Below, in pieces: positions 2,789 through 11,523 of a stretch of DNA of 64,000 nucleotides. A program made the translations under genes and the position numbers. Position 1 is the first letter of the stretch; each line of letters begins with the position of its first letter. Source of the DNA: Nitrospira sp. (GTDB lineage: Bacteria; Nitrospirota; Nitrospiria; Nitrospirales; Nitrospiraceae). Location of the stretch: contig JACOEM010000004.1 in the NCBI GenBank assembly GCA_024998565.1, forward strand, positions 1 through 64,000, given 5' to 3'. Below the pieces are notes generated by a model. The model had not been told where the DNA came from and ran no database searches. It saw only the letters and a list, made by a program, of their open reading frames with translations.

Positions 2789-3097
2789 TTCCGTCCCATT
2801 ACATCGGGCTGTCAGGCAAGTCCCCTCCGTGATCCGGAGCCGCATGCAGGAGTCGACCGACTCATACCCCCCTCCTTCTCCTTGTCTCACATGATGTGGT
2901 CGCGTGCCAGTCTGCCGGGAACGTGACGGTTTCTCTTTCAACCTCTTCTGATCACTGCTCCACGGAGTAGGGCCGTACTAGGGCCGATTGCCGGGGTTTA
3001 CCTCAGTGAATCATGGGCGTATCTTACCGATGGATTTGGGGGAGACCGACTTGCGAATCGCTTATTCGTGCGGAGTTCTGAGGAGACGATTCTAAGG
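2789..3097. other. Intergenic stretch without a recognisable gene
   Basis: About 300 bases between the DUF5672 gene and the hybrid kinase. I see no convincing ORF, RNA or strong hairpin. An AGGAGA at 3081 is the likely ribosome binding site of the kinase. Confidence 0.5.
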
Positions 3098-6000
3098 ATG
3101 CTGGCTGCGATTTGCCTGGTGACTGCGGGAGTCTTCGTGTTGGATGCGGCGATTCCGCTGGGGCATGGGATGTGGCTTTTGTACCTGTTCCCGCTCTGGC
3201 TGAGTTCGCGACTCGACCCGCCTGCGGCTCCCCTGCGATATGCCTCGGTATGCACGGTCTTACTTGCCGGAGGATTGTGGCTCGCGCCTCCCGGTGTCGA
3301 TGTGACGACGGTGATGTTCAGCCGTGCTCTGGGTACCGTCGTGATTTGGGGGGCCGCCTACCTGCTGTCGCAGCGGCGTGAAGCCGAGGACGCATTGCGT
3401 GCCGCCAATAGTCGCCTGGAGCTGCGAGTGGCGGAGCAGACGAAGAATCTGGTTTCCGCCAACGACCGGCTGACGGCTCAATTGGTTGAGCAACGGCGGA
3501 TCGAAGCCGAATTGCGCGAGAGTCGGGAGCGGTTCGAACTGGCCGCGGAAGGTGCGGATGTTGGGGTGTGGGAGTGGGATCTGCAGGAACACACCGCCTA
3601 CTATTCCCCGCGCTGGAAAAGCCAGCTTGGATGTACCGAAGCTGAAATCGGTGCGACGGTCGCCGACTGGCAGGCGCGTCTTCACCCTGACGACCGCGCG
3701 CGGGCGCTGGCGACGGTCAGGTTGTTTCAGGAGGGATATACCAAACAGTATCGTCTGGACCACCGCCTCCGGCATCACGACGGGTCCTATCGCTGGATCT
3801 CTTCGCTGGGCGCGGGAGTGTGTGATGAGCAGGGGCGGATGGTCCGGATGACCGGCATTCATCTGGATGTCACGGCGAGAACACAGGCTGAGGAGGCGAG
3901 ACGGGAAAGCGAAGACCGATACCGCACATTGGTGGAACAGGCCGGCGATATCATCTATCGGACCGATGCCGCGGGGAGGTTCATCTACTGTAACCCGACT
4001 TCGCTTCGTGTCCTGGGCTATCTCCCGGAGGAGTTGCTCGGTCGGCACTACTTAGAGATCGTTCTGCCGCAGTGCCGTTCGCAAGCCGAGCGGTTCTATG
4101 GCCGCCAGTTTGTCCGCAAAACGCCTCGCACCGTCTATGAGGTGCCGGTGGCCACCAAGGACGGCCGGGAAGTGTGGTTGGGGCAGCATACGCAGCTGTT
4201 ACTGGAGGGGGACGTCGTCAGCGGCTTTCAAGTGGTGGCCCGGGACATCACCGAGCGGAAAGGTGTCGAGCAGGCGTTGCGCGAAAGCGAGGAGCGCTTT
4301 TCCAAGGCGTTTCACAGCAGTCCGGCCGGGATGGCGATCAGCCGGCTTGAGGACGGCCGGGTGCTGGACGTGAATGAGGCGTTCGTGCGGGTGTCCGGAT
4401 TCTCCCGCGAAGAGCTGATCGGCATGTCCTCGCTGGATATCGGAATCTGGGTGAATCCGGAGGATCGCCGGCACTTGGCTGAGATCTTGACGCGCGACGG
4501 ATTTCTGCGACATCTGGAAAAAGAGTTCCGCACGAAATCCGGCGAAGTGCGGCATGGGCTGTTCAATGTCGAGCCGGTGTGCATCGGCCGGGAGACCTGC
4601 GTGCTCACCCTCGTGCTGGATATCACGAGACGCACGGAAGCGGAGGCAGCGTTGCGTCGTAGTCAATCGGTGCTGCAGGCGCACCAACATGCCTTGATGC
4701 GGCTGACAAAAAGCCAGCATATCGGGTCGGGGGACTGGCAGTTGGCGCTGGAAGAACTGATGCAGACGTCGGCGCTGGTGCTGGGGGTGGATCGGGCGAG
4801 TGTCTGGTTGCTGGATCGAACCGGAACGATTCTGGACTGTGTGGAGCTGTATGAGCAAGGTCAGGCGCGGCATTCACGGGGACAACGATTGAATGTGGCC
4901 GAGTACCCTCGCTACTTCGCCGAATTGCTCCAGGAGCAAGTGGTCGATGCGCATGATGTCGCGGCTGATTCACGCACGGGCGAATTGGTACAGCCCTATC
5001 TCGGGGCTCTCGGGATCGCCTCGTTGCTGGACGTGCCCATTTTCTTCGGCGGTCGATTGGCCGGCGTGGTCTGTCATGAGCGGGTCGGCCTGCCGCGCGA
5101 ATGGACGCGAGAAGAAGTGCAGTTCGCCACGTCCGTCGGGAACCTGGTGACCCTGGCCTACGAAGCGAAGCAACGGCTGGAGGCTGAAAATGCGCTCATG
5201 ACGGCGAAGGAGGCGGCCGAGTTCGCAAACCGGGCGAAGAGCGACTTCCTGGCGACCATGAGCCACGAGATCCGGACGCCGATGAACGCAATCGTCGGCA
5301 TGGCGGATCTGTTATCGGAAACCCCCTTGAACGAGGATCAGCGGGAATATGTGCAGATTTTTCGCGATGCCGGGAGCAACCTGCTCAGCCTGATCAACGA
5401 TGTGCTGGATCTGTCAAAAATCGAAGCCGGCCACTTGGATCTGGATGTGGTGGACTTCGATCTCAACGACCTGGTGCAACGGGCGGCTGAACTGGTTGCC
5501 GTGCGCGCCAGCGAGAAAAACCTGGAGTTGGCCTACCAGATTCAGCCGGATGTGCCGACGTCGCTGGTGGGCGACCCGAATCGTCTGCGGCAAGTGTTGC
5601 TCAACCTGCTGGGCAATGCCATCAAGTTCACTGATGAAGGCGAAGTGGTGTTGCGCGTGGAACGGGATCCGCAGGCGGACGGCCCGGGGACCATTCTGTT
5701 TACGGTGCGGGATACCGGCATTGGAATTCCCACAGACAAGTTGGCTGCCATCTTCGAGCGATTTACCCAGGTGGATTCCTCAACGACCAGGCCATACAGC
5801 GGCACCGGGCTCGGGTTGACGATTTCCCGACGACTGGTTGAGCGGATGGGCGGCAAGATGTGGGTGGACAGCGAACTGGGCAGGGGGAGTACGTTCAGCT
5901 TCACCGCCAAGTTCGCCGTGCATGTCCAGCCGGTGCCGGCGGTCCCGCCGGCGCAGTGGGAGCAACTGGCGAGCTTGCGGACCCTCATCGTGGACGACAA

Positions 6001-7120
6001 CGCGACCAACCGCCTGATTGTGCGGGAAACGCTGGCAGGATGGGGTATTCCAGCGGCCGAGGTCCCGGGAGGCGAGGAGGCGCTGTTCGAGCTACGTCGG
6101 GCGTCGAAAGCCGGTGTGCCGTATCGGTTGGTGATCCTGGATGTGCGCATGCCGAAACTCAGCGGGTGGCAGGTCGCGGAGACAATTGCCCGTACCCCGG
6201 GCCTGGCGGGAGTATCCATGATCATGCTGACCTCCGAGCGGCGCGCCGGTGACCAGGCGCGGGCCCGCGAGTGCGGAGTGGTGCGCTATCTCACGAAACC
6301 GTTTCGACGATCGGATTTGTTCAACGGCATGATGGCGGTGATCGGCAAGGTGGCGTTGGCTGAGAGCCATGCGCTGTCGCCTCAGCCGCCGGAGTCGACC
6401 GGGGACATGCCGGGGCTGAAGATTCTCCTGGCCGAGGATTTTGTCGACAACCGCCGTATGATGGAGTTTTATTTCAAATCGACCCCCCATCGGGTTGAGA
6501 CGGCGGCCAACGGCCAACTTGCCGTCGAGATGTTCCAGCGGGGCTCGTACGATCTGGTGCTAATGGACATTCAAATGCCCGTATTGGATGGGTATGCCGC
6601 GACGAGGGCGATTCGGTCGTGGGAGCAGGCGCAAGGCCGGAGTCCGGTTCCGATTCTGGCGCTGACGGCCAATGCGTTGCAGAGTGAAGTCCAACGGAGT
6701 CTGGAGGCGGGGTGTACGGCGCATTTGACGAAACCTATCCGTAAGGCTCGCCTGCTGGAAGCCGTGCAACTGTATTTTCAAACTTCCGATCCGGTCGCGC
6801 CGTCGTCGTCGGATGCGTCGTCCGAATCCGTCGTGTTGCAGGTGAGCGGAGAGTTTGAATCCCTGATGCCGGGGTTCCTGGAGCATCGACGACAGGAACT
6901 TGTCCAGATTGCAGACGCAATCGATCGAGGAGATTTTGAGACGATTCGCGAGATCAGGCATGGGCTCAAGGGGGCCGGGGGGACCTATGGTCTCGAAGCC
7001 ATCAGCGCGTACGGGCGCGCGTTGGAAACGGCGGCGGGCCAGAAGGACGGCGCGTGCGTTCGCGAGGCGCTCCACAGGCTCACCCGTTTTCTGGAGCGGC
7101 TGCAACTGGTCTATGTGTAA
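3098..7120 (+). CDS. Multidomain hybrid sensor histidine kinase (PAS-PAS-PAS-GAF-HisKA-HATPase-REC-REC-Hpt)
   Basis: The first 90 or so residues form several membrane helices, followed by a coiled coil and three PAS domains (about 150-270, 275-395 and 400-520). A GAF domain (about 535-690) comes next. HisKA has the phospho-acceptor H723 in [10 protein letters not shown], and the ATPase has N840 ([10 protein letters not shown]), DTGIGIP and GTGLGL. Two receivers follow with phospho-acceptors D1015 (ILDVRMP) and D1157 (LMDIQMP), then a C-terminal Hpt with H1288 (RHGLKGAGG). All catalytic residues are present, so a full internal phosphorelay is possible. ATG 3098 is preferred over GTG 3068 because AGGAGA precedes it. 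The sigma-54 response regulator begins 14 bases after the stop and is the obvious partner. The signal is unknown. Confidence 0.93.
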
Positions 7121-7134
7121 GGAGTATCCAAGCC

Positions 7135-8529
7135 ATGCGTGTCTTGCTGGTGGAAGACCACATCGATATCCGGCGCCTGTTCGAACAGGTCATTGAGGCG
7201 CGGGGACATGACGTCACGGGCTGTGCCGATGGTGAGTCCGCCTGGGAGGCCTACAGTCGGCGACCCTATGAACTCGTGTTACTCGATTGGGAGTTGCGAG
7301 GGGGCGGAATGGACGGACTGCAGGTGTGTCGGACCATCCGATCGAGTCCCGGCGGCGACCGCTGTGTCATTGTCATGATCACCGGACATGATTCTCCGGA
7401 ATCCTTGCGTACGGCGCTCCAGGCAGGGGTCAACGACTATCTGGTGAAGCCCGTCGGTGTGGAGTTCTTGAAGCTGCGGCTGACGATCGCGGAGCAGTGG
7501 GTGGAGAGTGTGCGACGGCGCTTCGCGGCGGAAGATCAAGCGCAGGCCTTGCAGTCGCAGTTGGCCGATCACGGCAAGTTCCATGACCTGATCGGCCGGA
7601 GTCCCGCGATGGTGGTGCTCTACGAAGAGATCCAGAAGATCGCGGCCGTCGATGCGACCGTGCTGATCGAAGGCGAAACCGGCACGGGAAAGGAATTGGT
7701 GGCCCGCGCAATTCATCTCTCCAGCCGCCGCGCACCTCATACCTTTCTCGCCGTCAATTGCGCCGGGTTCACCGACTCCATTCTGGGCAGCCAGCTCTTC
7801 GGTCATAAGAAGGGGGCCTTCACAGGCGCGATCGACAATCAGGAGGGTGTGTTCGAGGCCGCGCAGGGGGGCACCATATTTCTGGATGAGATCGGGGATA
7901 TTTCTCCCGCCGTGCAGACGAGCCTCCTGCGTGTGCTGCAAGAACGTGAAGTGACCCGGTTGGGAGAATCGAAGCCGCGCAAGGTGGATGTGCGGGTGGT
8001 GGTGGCGACACACCATAACCTCGTCGAAGATGTCGAAAAAGGCACGTTCAGACGGGACCTGCTGTATCGCATCAAGGTGGCGCGACTCCAACTCGCCCCG
8101 CTTCGTGAGCGGCCCACCGACATTCCGTTACTGGTCCATGCCTTTCTCGGACAGTTCCGGTCCGTGATGGAGAAGCCTGTGTTACAAGTGAGTCCGGAAG
8201 CCTTGCAGGTCCTCATCAGCCATTCGTGGCCCGGTAATGTGCGAGAACTCAAGAGTGCGGTGGAGTCGGCCCTGATTCATTGCAAGGGGACCGTCGTACG
8301 GGTGGAGGATCTTCCGCCGGAGGTCCGGAATCCGGAGCCGGCGGCGACCTATGTGCCGCTTCAGCGCCAGGACGAACGGACTCGCATGGTCGGGGCGCTG
8401 CAGCAAACGGGCGGCAACCGCTCGGAAGCCGCACGGTTGTTAGGGATGAGCCGACGAACTTTCTATCGCCGCCTGGCTGAATACGATGTATCCGCACCGG
8501 GTGATGGGGGAGATGCACCCCTTCAGTGA
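7135..8529 (+). CDS. Sigma-54-dependent response regulator (NtrC family activator)
   Basis: The 464-residue protein has an N-terminal receiver with phospho-acceptor D51 in LVLLDWEL. The central AAA+ domain has Walker A GETGTGKE, the sigma-54 contact loop GAFTGA at residues 227-232 and Walker B GGTIFLDEIGDIS. A Fis-type HTH lies at the C-terminus (NRSEAARLLGMSRRTFYRRL). The intact GAFTGA loop means it should be able to activate sigma-54 RNA polymerase. ATG 7135 is placed nine bases behind AAGGAG; a longer frame from 7054 overlaps the kinase and has no such site. It is probably cotranscribed with the hybrid kinase. Two sigma-54-like promoters lie downstream, at 8819 and 10784, and are its likely targets. 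Confidence 0.94.
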   Translation: MRVLLVEDHIDIRRLFEQVIEARGHDVTGCADGESAWEAYSRRPYELVLLDWELRGGGMDGLQVCRTIRSSPGGDRCVIVMITGHDSPESLRTALQAGVNDYLVKPVGVEFLKLRLTIAEQWVESVRRRFAAEDQAQALQSQLADHGKFHDLIGRSPAMVVLYEEIQKIAAVDATVLIEGETGTGKELVARAIHLSSRRAPHTFLAVNCAGFTDSILGSQLFGHKKGAFTGAIDNQEGVFEAAQGGTIFLDEIGDISPAVQTSLLRVLQEREVTRLGESKPRKVDVRVVVATHHNLVEDVEKGTFRRDLLYRIKVARLQLAPLRERPTDIPLLVHAFLGQFRSVMEKPVLQVSPEALQVLISHSWPGNVRELKSAVESALIHCKGTVVRVEDLPPEVRNPEPAATYVPLQRQDERTRMVGALQQTGGNRSEAARLLGMSRRTFYRRLAEYDVSAPGDGGDAPLQ

Positions 8530-8711
8530 ATCCGCCTCGATTACGATCTAAATGCGGGGACCTGTACCTCCGCGTCAGATAGATCTTTCCTCTGAATCCA
8601 CCATTTCCTACTTTCTTCGCCTGACGAGCCATTTCGCGCGTATCAGATTCAGCGTAGCCGCACCCGCGTGTGCAGGTGCTGAAACTGTGCAACGAGGCAA
8701 CATGACACAGG

Positions 8712-8722
8712 TCTGGCACAAC
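8712..8722 (+). promoter_or_regulatory. Possible upstream activator site (TCTGGCACAAC)
   Basis: The sequence TCTGGCACAAC lies about 100 bases before the -24/-12 element at 8819. Close relatives (TTCTGGCACA and TTGTGGCACAA) recur 80-110 bases before the second element at 10784. Position and recurrence fit an enhancer site for the neighbouring sigma-54 activator. Binding is inferred, not shown. Confidence 0.4.
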
Positions 8723-8818
8723 GCATTGCGCCATGTCCTTGACGCGCGAAATGGATGGATTTTCTATCAATCAGCGCAAGTGCCTAGTATTGCTTGATGC
8801 TTCACCCGCCGTCTTTGA

Positions 8819-8834
8819 TGGCACGATCCTTGAT
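8819..8834 (+). promoter_or_regulatory. Candidate sigma-54 promoter (-24/-12) of module 1
   Basis: TGGCACGATCCTTGAT matches the sigma-54 consensus TGGCACG-N4-TTGCW with exact GG-N10 spacing. The one important deviation is GA instead of GC at -12. It sits 79 bases before the ATG of the first small-protein gene and directly downstream of a sigma-54 activator gene. The same element, TGGCAC-A-GCCC-TTGAT, precedes the paralogous module. Confidence 0.6.
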
Positions 8835-8912
8835 ATGAGAAGAGGCATGAGAGCGAGTTACCACCGGCCATAACGGGTCGAACGACGGGGAGAGGCCAAA
8901 GAGGGGACGCAT

Positions 8913-9179
8913 ATGGATGTCGCAGGATTTTTACTCTCATACGATGCGGAGCAGGAAGTGTTGGTGACGATTCAGCCCTCGTCCCTCGGACCCTTCGATC
9001 AGCCTGATGTAAAAGAACAGATTGACGGATCTTGGATCGATATGTCGCGAGTGCCGCACCGAACCTGGACGGATCGAACGAGGGCAGTCGGAGCGGTGTT
9101 GACATACCTGCAAGGGTTGTCGCCGATCTCATCGGGATTTCCGCCCGCGACTCGTGAAGGAATGAAGGGCCAGAACTAG
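8913..9179 (+). CDS. Conserved small protein, module copy 1
   Basis: An 88-residue protein of unknown function. It aligns end to end with the product of 10898-11143: shared positions include GFLL near the N-terminus, EQE-L--IQP, G-F, DG-W, a later W--R--A and AVL-YLQ-L. No signal peptide, membrane segment or catalytic motif is visible; the pattern suggests a small beta-strand-rich domain ending in a helix. It lies 16 bases upstream of a LuxR-type HTH gene and behind a sigma-54-like promoter, so the two are probably cotranscribed. A partner or sensor role for the HTH protein is only a guess from conserved pairing. Confidence 0.75.
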   Translation: MDVAGFLLSYDAEQEVLVTIQPSSLGPFDQPDVKEQIDGSWIDMSRVPHRTWTDRTRAVGAVLTYLQGLSPISSGFPPATREGMKGQN

Positions 9180-9195
9180 AACCAAGGAGAGCACC

Positions 9196-9516
9196 ATGTG
9201 GAGTGAACAGCAGAATGTTGTGCAGGTTGAACGTGAGGCGAATGCGCAGGGCTCGACACCGGGGATCGCGCAGGCGTTGGGCGGAGGCCTGGTGGCCAAA
9301 CGGCGTCCTGAAGACTTGACTCCTCGCGAACAGGAAATCTTGCAGTTGGTTTGGGCCGGCCTGACGAATCGTACGATCGCGGAGCGGCTGCATATCAGCA
9401 TCAAGACCGCGGAGGCTCACCGCGCCAATATGATGAAAAAATTGCGTGTGTCCAACATTGCGCAACTCTTGAAGACCGCGCTGGAAGAGGGGCTGCTCGC
9501 CACCCATGCGGGCTGA
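9196..9516 (+). CDS. Stand-alone LuxR-type HTH regulator, module copy 1
   Basis: The 106-residue protein has a variable N-terminus of about 35 residues and a complete LuxR/GerE HTH. The HTH runs from LTPREQEILQLVWAG through NRTIAERLHIS to KTAEAHRANMMKKLRV. No receiver domain is present, so it is not a classical two-component regulator. AAGGAG precedes ATG 9196. It follows the small gene at 8913 closely and is a paralogue of the genes at 11167 and 41764 (minus strand). It probably binds DNA as a dimer; its targets are unknown. Confidence 0.88.
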   Translation: MWSEQQNVVQVEREANAQGSTPGIAQALGGGLVAKRRPEDLTPREQEILQLVWAGLTNRTIAERLHISIKTAEAHRANMMKKLRVSNIAQLLKTALEEGLLATHAG

Positions 9517-9665
9517 TGGGGTTCGCGGCGGCCTGCGTTCTCGGGGGAAGTCCCACTCCCGGCGGCGCAGCGGCTCCCCGCGAATCCGCCCCCTCACAGT
9601 AGAAATGAGGCTCGCGCCGGCGAGGGTGTTTGCAGTAGAATGCCGCACCGTTGCAGGAGCGAGCC

Positions 9666-10058
9666 GTGGTCGAACAGCGTATCGAAGAAATCACCCGCGC
9701 CAATCTCGCCTTTTATGCCGCCTTTGAAAGCCTGGACATGCTCCAGATGGACAAAGTGTGGGCGCATCTCGAATACGTCACCTGCATTCATCCCGGCTGG
9801 AGCCTCCGCAGCGACTGGCCGGCGGTGCGCGATTCCTGGGTGCTGATCTTCAACAATACCTTCTCCATGAAATTCGAGCTGTCGGATGTGCAGGTTCAGG
9901 TCGCAGGGGACCTGGGGTGGGTCATCTGCACCGAACATCTCACCAGCCGTCAAGACGACCAGCCGGTCGAAACGCGTGTCCTCGCGACCAATCTCTTTGA
10001 GCGTATCGGCGACGAGTGGTTGATGATTCATCACCATGGCTCGCCGGTGATGGGCTAG
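9666..10058 (+). CDS. SnoaL-like/NTF2-fold protein
   Basis: The 130-residue product has an N-terminal helix (EEITRANLAFYAAFESLD), then WAHLEYVTCIHPGW, and ends with strands such as VICTEHLTS and LATNLFERIGDEWLMIHHHGSP. This is the usual pattern of SnoaL_3/DUF4440-type NTF2-like domains, which serve as small hydrolases, isomerases or binding domains. The longest frame starts at TTG 9651, but AGGAG at 9655-9659 lies inside it and is well placed for GTG 9666. The gene lies between the two regulatory modules on the same strand. Its substrate is unknown. Confidence 0.8.
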   Translation: MVEQRIEEITRANLAFYAAFESLDMLQMDKVWAHLEYVTCIHPGWSLRSDWPAVRDSWVLIFNNTFSMKFELSDVQVQVAGDLGWVICTEHLTSRQDDQPVETRVLATNLFERIGDEWLMIHHHGSPVMG

Positions 10059-10081
10059 CCCCATTGCTGCGGAGGCTCCGG

Positions 10082-10489
10082 ATGTCCGGCGAAGCTCGAA
10101 GGACGGTCGGTGCCGGGTGGTTGGCGCTGGGACTCTTCTTCCTCACCGGCTGTACGACCGTCGCTCAGGTCACGACGTGGTCGGATGAATCCTGTCGGCA
10201 AAAGGTCAAAGACCAGCTTCAGTCGATCCTCATCGAGGAGCGTGAGCAAGGTGATGTCGCGAATCGCCTGGCCGTGAATACCACTGAGGTGTTGGCGACC
10301 GGTTCTTTGGGCCCCCGTCCCTTCGGCGTCTCGTCGCCATCCGGCGCCGACTATAGTTTCTTCATACAACGTAAAGGCGAGGGCTGTCTCCTGCGGTTGT
10401 TCGGCCGTCAGAAGGGGTTTACCCGGTACACCAATAACCTCACCTATATCTCCACTCGTTCCCTTGACGGTTGTGCTTGCGCTGAATGA
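10082..10489 (+). CDS. Small lipoprotein of unknown function
   Basis: The 135-residue protein begins with a basic segment and a hydrophobic helix ending in the lipobox LTGC, with the lipidated cysteine at residue 24. It is therefore exported and membrane-anchored by lipid. The mature part contains two more cysteines (ESC and EGC) and a C-terminal DGCACAE, and reads as a compact beta-rich domain. GGAGG at 10071 places the start at ATG 10082. The upstream gene ends 23 bases earlier, so the two may be cotranscribed. I do not recognise the family. Confidence 0.8.
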   Translation: MSGEARRTVGAGWLALGLFFLTGCTTVAQVTTWSDESCRQKVKDQLQSILIEEREQGDVANRLAVNTTEVLATGSLGPRPFGVSSPSGADYSFFIQRKGEGCLLRLFGRQKGFTRYTNNLTYISTRSLDGCACAE

Positions 10490-10674
10490 TCGTCGCCTGA
10501 CGATTGCGCTTCCAGTTTCCCTGCCGTTCTCTTTGGTTCTGTAAACTCTCGTCCCATTCGCATTCCGCACACTCCCCGCGCCTGCTCAAGATCACCGGAA
10601 TCTGTTGCGCTATGGCGGCCTCACCGGGCCGATCTGTCGCCAGAAGTGTCTCACGATACTGTCTCACGCTTGGA

Positions 10675-10705
10675 TTCTGGCACACTCTTGTTTCTTGTGG
10701 CACAA
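10675..10705 (+). promoter_or_regulatory. Possible paired activator sites (TTCTGGCACA and TTGTGGCACAA)
   Basis: TTCTGGCACA at 10675-10684 and the palindrome TTGTG-G-CACAA at 10695-10705 lie 20 bases apart (about two helical turns). They are about 80-110 bases upstream of the -24/-12 element at 10784. A related site precedes the first module at 8712. This is typical placement for enhancer sites of a sigma-54 activator; the identification is inferred. Confidence 0.45.
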
Positions 10706-10783
10706 CCTATGGCATTGGGCATAAATCCAGAATTATTGCGCAACATATTGTTTTGAATAGAACAATGTCTTTCAGGCGTGGCT

Positions 10784-10799
10784 TGGCACAGCCCTTGAT
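10784..10799 (+). promoter_or_regulatory. Candidate sigma-54 promoter (-24/-12) of module 2
   Basis: TGGCACAGCCCTTGAT repeats the element at 8819 with the same GG-N10 spacing and the same TTGAT in place of TTGC. It lies about 100 bases before ATG 10898 of the second small-protein gene. The surrounding 408-base intergenic region (10490-10897) holds no other gene. Confidence 0.6.
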
Positions 10800-10897
10800 C
10801 TAGTGGAGATATGTCTCGTAGGGCAAAGACCTTGGGGATTTTGATGGAGTCGCGCAGTCGAGAGTCCTGAATGCGCAGAACAAAGGGAGGAGTGATC

Positions 10898-11143
10898 ATG
10901 ATGGTGAAGGGGTTCTTACTCAAAGACAGGGAGGAGCAGGAGTATCTGCTGGCCATTCAACCGGCCACCCACGGCATGTTCGAGCGGTTGATCGTCCGCC
11001 AAAAAGTCGATGGGTGTTGGGTTGAGCTCAACGGGAATGCACAGGGTTCCTGGCAGCCGCGGGCACAAGCTATTACTGCGGTGTTGGGGTACCTGCAACG
11101 TCTCTGGGACACGTCCAAGCCTGCCTTGGCGCGGGGGAACTAA
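10898..11143 (+). CDS. Conserved small protein, module copy 2
   Basis: An 81-residue paralogue of the protein at 8913, with GFLL at the N-terminus, EQE-LLAIQP in the middle, and DG-W then AVLGYLQRL near the end. The frame is open from 10871, but AAGGGAGG at 10883-10890 and the alignment with copy 1 (MDVAGFLL versus MMVKGFLL) fix the start at ATG 10898. A LuxR-type HTH gene follows 23 bases later, as in copy 1. Function unknown; no export signal. Confidence 0.78.
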   Translation: MMVKGFLLKDREEQEYLLAIQPATHGMFERLIVRQKVDGCWVELNGNAQGSWQPRAQAITAVLGYLQRLWDTSKPALARGN

Positions 11144-11166
11144 AGAAACGGCAAAGGAGGAACTTG

Positions 11167-11523
11167 ATGTTGGCTGAGAAAAAAGACAGCCGGGTAGGGA
11201 ACCAAGAGGTGACGGAGGACGGGGTCTTCACGACACATCGTCCATCGTCCGACGCTCTTGCAGCGGCCGCCGTAAAGCGAAGGCCGGAGGATCTCACGCC
11301 GCGTGAGTTGGAAATTCTCCGCCTGATCTGGGATGGCCATACCAATCGAAGTATCGCAGAGCAGCTGAATATCAGCATGAAGACGGCCGATACTCATCGC
11401 TCGAATATGATGAAGAAGTTGCGCGCGTGTAATACTGCCCAATTACTTAAAGCGGCGCTGGAGGGAAATCTGCTAGAGACGGGCTCGGGCCTGAGGCGTC
11501 CCGGTCGGGGAGGCCAACGCTGA
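11167..11523 (+). CDS. Stand-alone LuxR-type HTH regulator, module copy 2
   Basis: The 118-residue protein has a polar N-terminus of about 45 residues and a complete LuxR HTH (LTPRELEILRLIWDG, then NRSIAEQLNIS, then KTADTHRSNMMKKLRA). It has no receiver. It is close to the protein at 9196 in the HTH and in the preceding KRRPEDL segment, while the N-terminal ends differ, as expected after a duplication with divergence of any sensing part. AAAGGAGG lies six bases before ATG 11167. It forms the second small-protein/HTH pair. Confidence 0.88.
   Translation: MLAEKKDSRVGNQEVTEDGVFTTHRPSSDALAAAAVKRRPEDLTPRELEILRLIWDGHTNRSIAEQLNISMKTADTHRSNMMKKLRACNTAQLLKAALEGNLLETGSGLRRPGRGGQR

Follow-up and report, generated by a model that had tools for sequence, protein, structure and literature searches.

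The window, by which we mean the whole 64,000-nucleotide stretch of Nitrospira DNA that was analysed, carries genes for a hybrid sensor histidine kinase and a response regulator (RR) and, downstream of these, two modules, A and B, each composed of a small-protein gene followed by a gene for a GerE/LuxR-type HTH protein (Table 1).

Table 1. Features of the locus in window coordinates. Promoters, arrays and conserved elements are predictions.
Feature	Position	Strand	Evidence or remark
Hybrid sensor histidine kinase (PAS x3, GAF, HisKA, HATPase, REC-REC, HPt)	3068–7120	+	Pfam; adjoins RR in relatives
Sigma-54-dependent response regulator RR (REC, AAA+ with GAFTGA, Fis-type HTH)	7135–8529	+	Pfam
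Activator-site array A: TGACACA-N4-TGGCACA and inverted TGCGCCA	8703–8733	+	Mean major-base frequency 0.84, against 0.51 upstream
Conserved TTGACGC, between array A and promoter A	8739–8745	+	5/7 columns invariant, 25 sequences
Conserved TAAgtCCCTAGTATT-like element, in the window CAAGTGCCTAGTATT, between array A and promoter A	8777–8791	+	Major-base frequency 0.87
Promoter A, -24/-12 element TGGCACGATCCTTGAT	8819–8834	+	TTGAT 25/25, TGGCAY 25/25
smA, 88-aa small protein, module A	8913–9179	+	Under weak constraint; some relatives have lost it or carry a decayed copy
hthA, orphan GerE/LuxR-type HTH, no receiver domain	9196–9516	+	Pfam PF00196, 1.9e-19
Activator-site array B: TGTCTCA, TGTCTCA, TGGCACA, TGGCACA	10647–10707	+	Conservation; double TGTCTCR array
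Promoter B, -24/-12 element TGGCACAGCCCTTGAT	10784–10799	+	TTGA 22/22, GGCAY 22/22
Conserved leader element CGTAGGGCAAAGACCTTGGGGA, downstream of promoter B	10817–10838	+	Major-base frequency 0.86
smB, 81-aa small protein, module B	10898–11143	+	Strong purifying selection
hthB, orphan GerE/LuxR-type HTH, no receiver domain	11164–11523	+	Pfam PF00196, 4.4e-19

RR possesses a receiver domain of the NtrC-type response regulators [PF00072, 1.6e-23], together with the Walker motifs and GAFTGA loop (residues 227–232, 7813–7830) of a bEBP AAA+ domain and a Fis-type HTH. An earlier note, made from the letters of this DNA, had called it a sigma-54 response regulator with an intact GAFTGA, and the Pfam architecture (REC-AAA+-Fis) agrees. 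As in the PEP-CTERM PrsK/PrsR-type sigma-54 systems, RR matches the response-regulator model TIGR02915 over its full length [1.7e-97]; unlike them, it scores below the family cut-off (327.1 against 502.6), its putative targets are regulators, and the locus genes examined are not PEP-CTERM genes.

The order HK-RR-smA-hthA-SnoaL-lipoprotein-like-smB-hthB-PH-like-gcvT is largely conserved among 25 same-genus genomes. RR with its GAFTGA lies beside the promoters in nearly all relatives and, where intact, is 84–98% identical across the genus; in one genome (G014, L080) residues ~57–207 are missing with the frame open, through either a genuine deletion or an error of assembly. SnoaL-PH-gcvT synteny is widespread in Nitrospira; the kinase, RR and the small-protein/HTH modules were found at this place only in the genus of the window. 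The SnoaL-like protein encoded between the modules (9651–10058) shows 94–100% identity within the genus, where its neighbours diverge, and 70–78% in other Nitrospira, where the HTH modules are absent.

The products of smA and smB are 42% identical over 69 aa and those of hthA and hthB 71% over 72 aa, which upholds the earlier description of paralogous two-gene modules, one behind each element. Against PF00196 HthA and HthB score 69.5 and 68.3 bits (cut-off 23.5); both match HTH families only, as orphan regulators do, and HthA also resembles the PedR model [9e-13], below the cut-off of that model. Like GerE and PedR they have a GerE HTH with neither receiver nor autoinducer domain; unlike them, they lie behind predicted sigma-54 promoters and are paired with a Nitrospira-specific small protein. 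Two further hth paralogues, at C1:686507 and C4:41785, were rejected as members of the regulon, no small-protein partner or TTGAT element being seen upstream.

Neither smA nor smB matched a family in Pfam or NCBIfam. SmB has a predicted fold of four strands and a long helix (pLDDT 77), for which no significant structural or sequence match was found in the PDB. Its gene is under strong purifying selection (26–42 synonymous against 5–8 nonsynonymous codon changes) and smA is not; at L075, L076, L077 and L080 smA is gone or decayed and promoter A and hthA persist. Among 396 Nitrospirota genomes, relatives of smB were found in the genus of the window only, plus four weak matches in one other genus. 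Three genomes (L071–L073) contain a single gene intermediate between smA and smB, which suggests that modules A and B arose by duplication of one ancestral module. The small proteins may, hypothetically, modulate their partner HTH proteins.

The -24/-12 elements and their upstream arrays

The pattern TGGCACN5TTGAT occurs twice in the 64 kb, at 8819 and 10784, where 0.05 matches would be expected, and in 0 of 100 shuffles were there two. The two elements are identical at 13 of 16 positions. These are the places at which the earlier note had put elements of sigma-54 spacing, and both proved to be conserved throughout the genus when the syntenic region from the 25 genomes was footprinted (the window and 24 relatives in the alignment of A, 22 sequences in that of B). 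Promoter A has the consensus TGGCAYGATCYTTGAT, that is, TGGCAY-GATCY-TTGAT, in all 25 sequences, and 14 of its 16 columns are invariant (mean major-base frequency 0.98); stretches between the conserved elements fall to 0.51–0.64, and its flanks to 0.5–0.65. At promoter B GGCAY-N5-TTGA is kept in 22/22 and TTGAT in 20. GG at -24, TTG at -12 and a spacing of N5 between TGGCAC and TTG are found in all 47 A and B promoters. Since no other 16-bp stretch of its aligned region is as conserved as element A, we do not attribute the elements to chance, and the conservation supports the view that both are real sigma-54 (RpoN) promoters which would function as such.

Across the 4.13-Mb genome the exact pattern has five matches, namely A, B and three within long ORFs; the last were rejected as extra targets and are taken to be chance. 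It is these chance copies, with the decay of smA in some genomes, that might lead one to regard A and B themselves as vestigial or as chance resemblances. We consider this exceedingly improbable, as footprinting already contradicts it: the elements hardly vary among the 25 and 22 sequences, and their flanks diverge.

Putative activator half-sites, TGRCACA/TGAGACA, form conserved arrays ~80–140 bp upstream of the promoters; in the window the first base of array A is 116 bp, and that of array B 137 bp, upstream of the -24. Enhancers of sigma-54 promoters usually lie ~70–150 bp upstream (PMC3844500). In the alignments array A reads TGRCACA-N3/4-TGRCACA-N6-TGTGCCA and array B TGTCTCA, TGGCACA, GTGRCACA. 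To judge by these sequences, RR would be the obvious protein to bind them. The earlier note had noticed neither the arrays nor the genus-wide lack of C at -12 (see below).

At -24, TGGCAC is similar to the array half-site TGGCACA, and one might therefore take 8819 and 10784 for further activator half-sites belonging to promoters of the sigma-70 type. This seems to us very improbable. TTGAT, at a fixed N5, is as conserved as TGGCAY, whereas the half-sites of the arrays have no TTGAT after them; the spacer GATCY of promoter A is also fixed; and no conserved -10 could be recognized by eye in the alignment at a proper distance from TTGACGC.

The TAAgtCCCTAGTATT-like element between array A and promoter A is perhaps bound by a GerE protein; no clear extra copies of it were found in the genome. 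Copies of the CCCTAGTATT element were rejected as GerE sites, with 6 matches against 6 for the reversed-pattern control. The leader element CGTAGGGCAAAGACCTTGGGGA is possibly an operator; as for RNA structure in leader B, the alignment displayed no covariation and the sole Rfam match was sub-threshold.

A predicted third promoter and a putative second activator

The earlier note had proposed scanning the genome for the exact pattern, to see whether other copies precede the same kind of module. The three additional exact matches lie inside ORFs. The related pattern TGGCAYN4YTTGATR is found at three places: promoter A, one site inside rplL (chance), and C1:261042, which we call promoter C; a third GerE gene, hthC, starts ~125 bp downstream of it. 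The pair TGTCTCR-N0-8-TGTCTCR is present twice and no more in the 4.13 Mb, once upstream of each of promoters B and C. In 21 aligned sequences promoter C is conserved together with its TGTCTC-N4-GAGACA arrays, the -24 T and the -12 being partly divergent.

The gene before hthC, EbpC, encodes a putative PAS-AAA+-Fis activator, as read from its translation (GAFTGA is visible and PAS was assigned by eye), which is 63% identical to RR over the AAA+/HTH part and shares 28 of 41 residues with it in the HTH region. Directly before EbpC and hthC, and following an OmpA-like membrane protein, is a Ras-like small GTPase (L083:2556–4878; G000:C1 ~258555–260877). It would be unusual for a sigma-54 activator to be linked to a GTPase.

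Upstream half-site arrays are conserved at A, B and C alike; those of A and C differ in the orientation and spacing of the half-sites, which weighs against the explanation favoured below. Two relatives, each a single draft genome in a collection of which some are metagenome-assembled, bear on the activators. In G024 the kinase and RR are gone from the locus, with no RR orthologue found elsewhere in the genome, and EbpC is present; the A and B sites and promoters are intact, with smA lost and promoter A 115 bp before hthA. In G012, where RR and EbpC are both missing, the upstream array is largely gone; that the core element is kept there without either activator weighs against the explanation we favour. 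Taken together, the two cases suggest that two activators converge on one type of site.

The earlier note had imagined a self-contained circuit, in which only this kinase and RR would control A and B; module C would then be an independent system. In most genomes the kinase, RR and modules A and B stand in tight synteny, which speaks for such an arrangement, but we think it unlikely: the rare TGTCTCR array is common to B and C, module C has the variant -12 with a PAS-type activator of its own, RR and EbpC have similar HTH regions, and G024 retains the A and B sites without RR or the kinase.

The -12 sequence

Canonical sigma-54 promoters have GG at -24 and TGC at -12 (PMC3844500). Not one of the 68 promoters (25 A, 22 B and 21 C) has the C of the -12 GC doublet. 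All A and B promoters read TTGA, while the 21 C sequences, counted manually from the alignment, read TTGAT (11), TTGTA (7), TTGAA (2) or TTAAT (1). The missing C counts against reading these elements as sigma-54 promoters and, because none has TTGC at -12, we class A, B and C as variants. The constancy of TTGAT in A (25/25) and of TTGA in B (22/22) supports the view that the TTGAT, which the earlier note had called unusual, is meaningful.

A second RpoN as the explanation of TTGAT was rejected, since a search of the genome found only one, of normal type with an intact RpoN box (ARRTVAKYR). Candidate canonical promoters also exist in this genome: TGGYAYN5TTGCW has 20 matches, against 9 for the reversed control, and several copies of TGGCACN5TTGCTC are found just upstream of genes, for example lpxC. 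Given a single normal RpoN and these TTGCT-type candidates elsewhere, the -12 variant looks specific to this regulon, the canonical ones being known as candidate matches in one genome. Its TTGA or TTGT in place of TTGC probably tunes the strength or tightness of the promoter. Promoter subclasses set apart by natural single-base differences near -12 are also reported from Rhodobacter sphaeroides (-11) and Bradyrhizobium japonicum (-12) (PMC3162934); those bacteria have several RpoN copies, whereas only one was found here.

A proposed circuit

From what is seen directly, namely the sequence, its conservation, the synteny and the common types of site and promoter, we judge it likely (roughly 80%) that A and B are functional sigma-54 promoters of a small enhancer-dependent regulon confined to one Nitrospira genus (lineage I, N. 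defluvii group), organised as follows. The hybrid kinase would most likely phosphorylate RR, which would bind the TGRCACA/TGAGACA arrays and remodel Esigma54 at both promoters, driving smA-hthA and smB-hthB. EbpC, the paralogous activator with a PAS domain, would recognise the same kind of site and drive hthC from promoter C, and would probably contribute at A and B as well. The GerE proteins would presumably relay the signal to secondary targets.

A further step, which we put forward tentatively and hold to be rather less probable than not, is that these form a distinct genus-wide class of sigma-54 promoter served by a single RpoN. The change of the -12 C to A or T would be a functional setting and not drift, and two activators, a phosphorelay RR and a PAS protein beside a Ras-like GTPase, would converge through one type of site on orphan GerE regulators only.

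The arrangement has the features of NtrC-family bEBP/sigma-54 circuits with a neighbouring activator: REC-AAA+-Fis, GAFTGA, a -24/-12 element and sites ~80–140 bp upstream. It departs from them in the A or T for C at -12, in its outputs (orphan GerE regulators and a new small protein) and in that two different activators appear to use one site type. A search of the open-access literature on Nitrospira sigma-54 circuits found nothing on this locus; in one study Nitrospira rpoN, in E. coli, is reported to suppress a quorum-sensing promoter (PMC8553950), a finding not shown to bear on these genes.

Nitrite oxidation in wastewater plants is driven by Nitrospira, about whose gene regulation we know little. 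Footprinting alone has here yielded a compact, testable regulon, in which two activators would act through one type of site at three promoters ahead of named targets. With one RpoN and a consistently lost -12 C, this bacterium also allows a direct test of what the GC doublet does in natural promoters.
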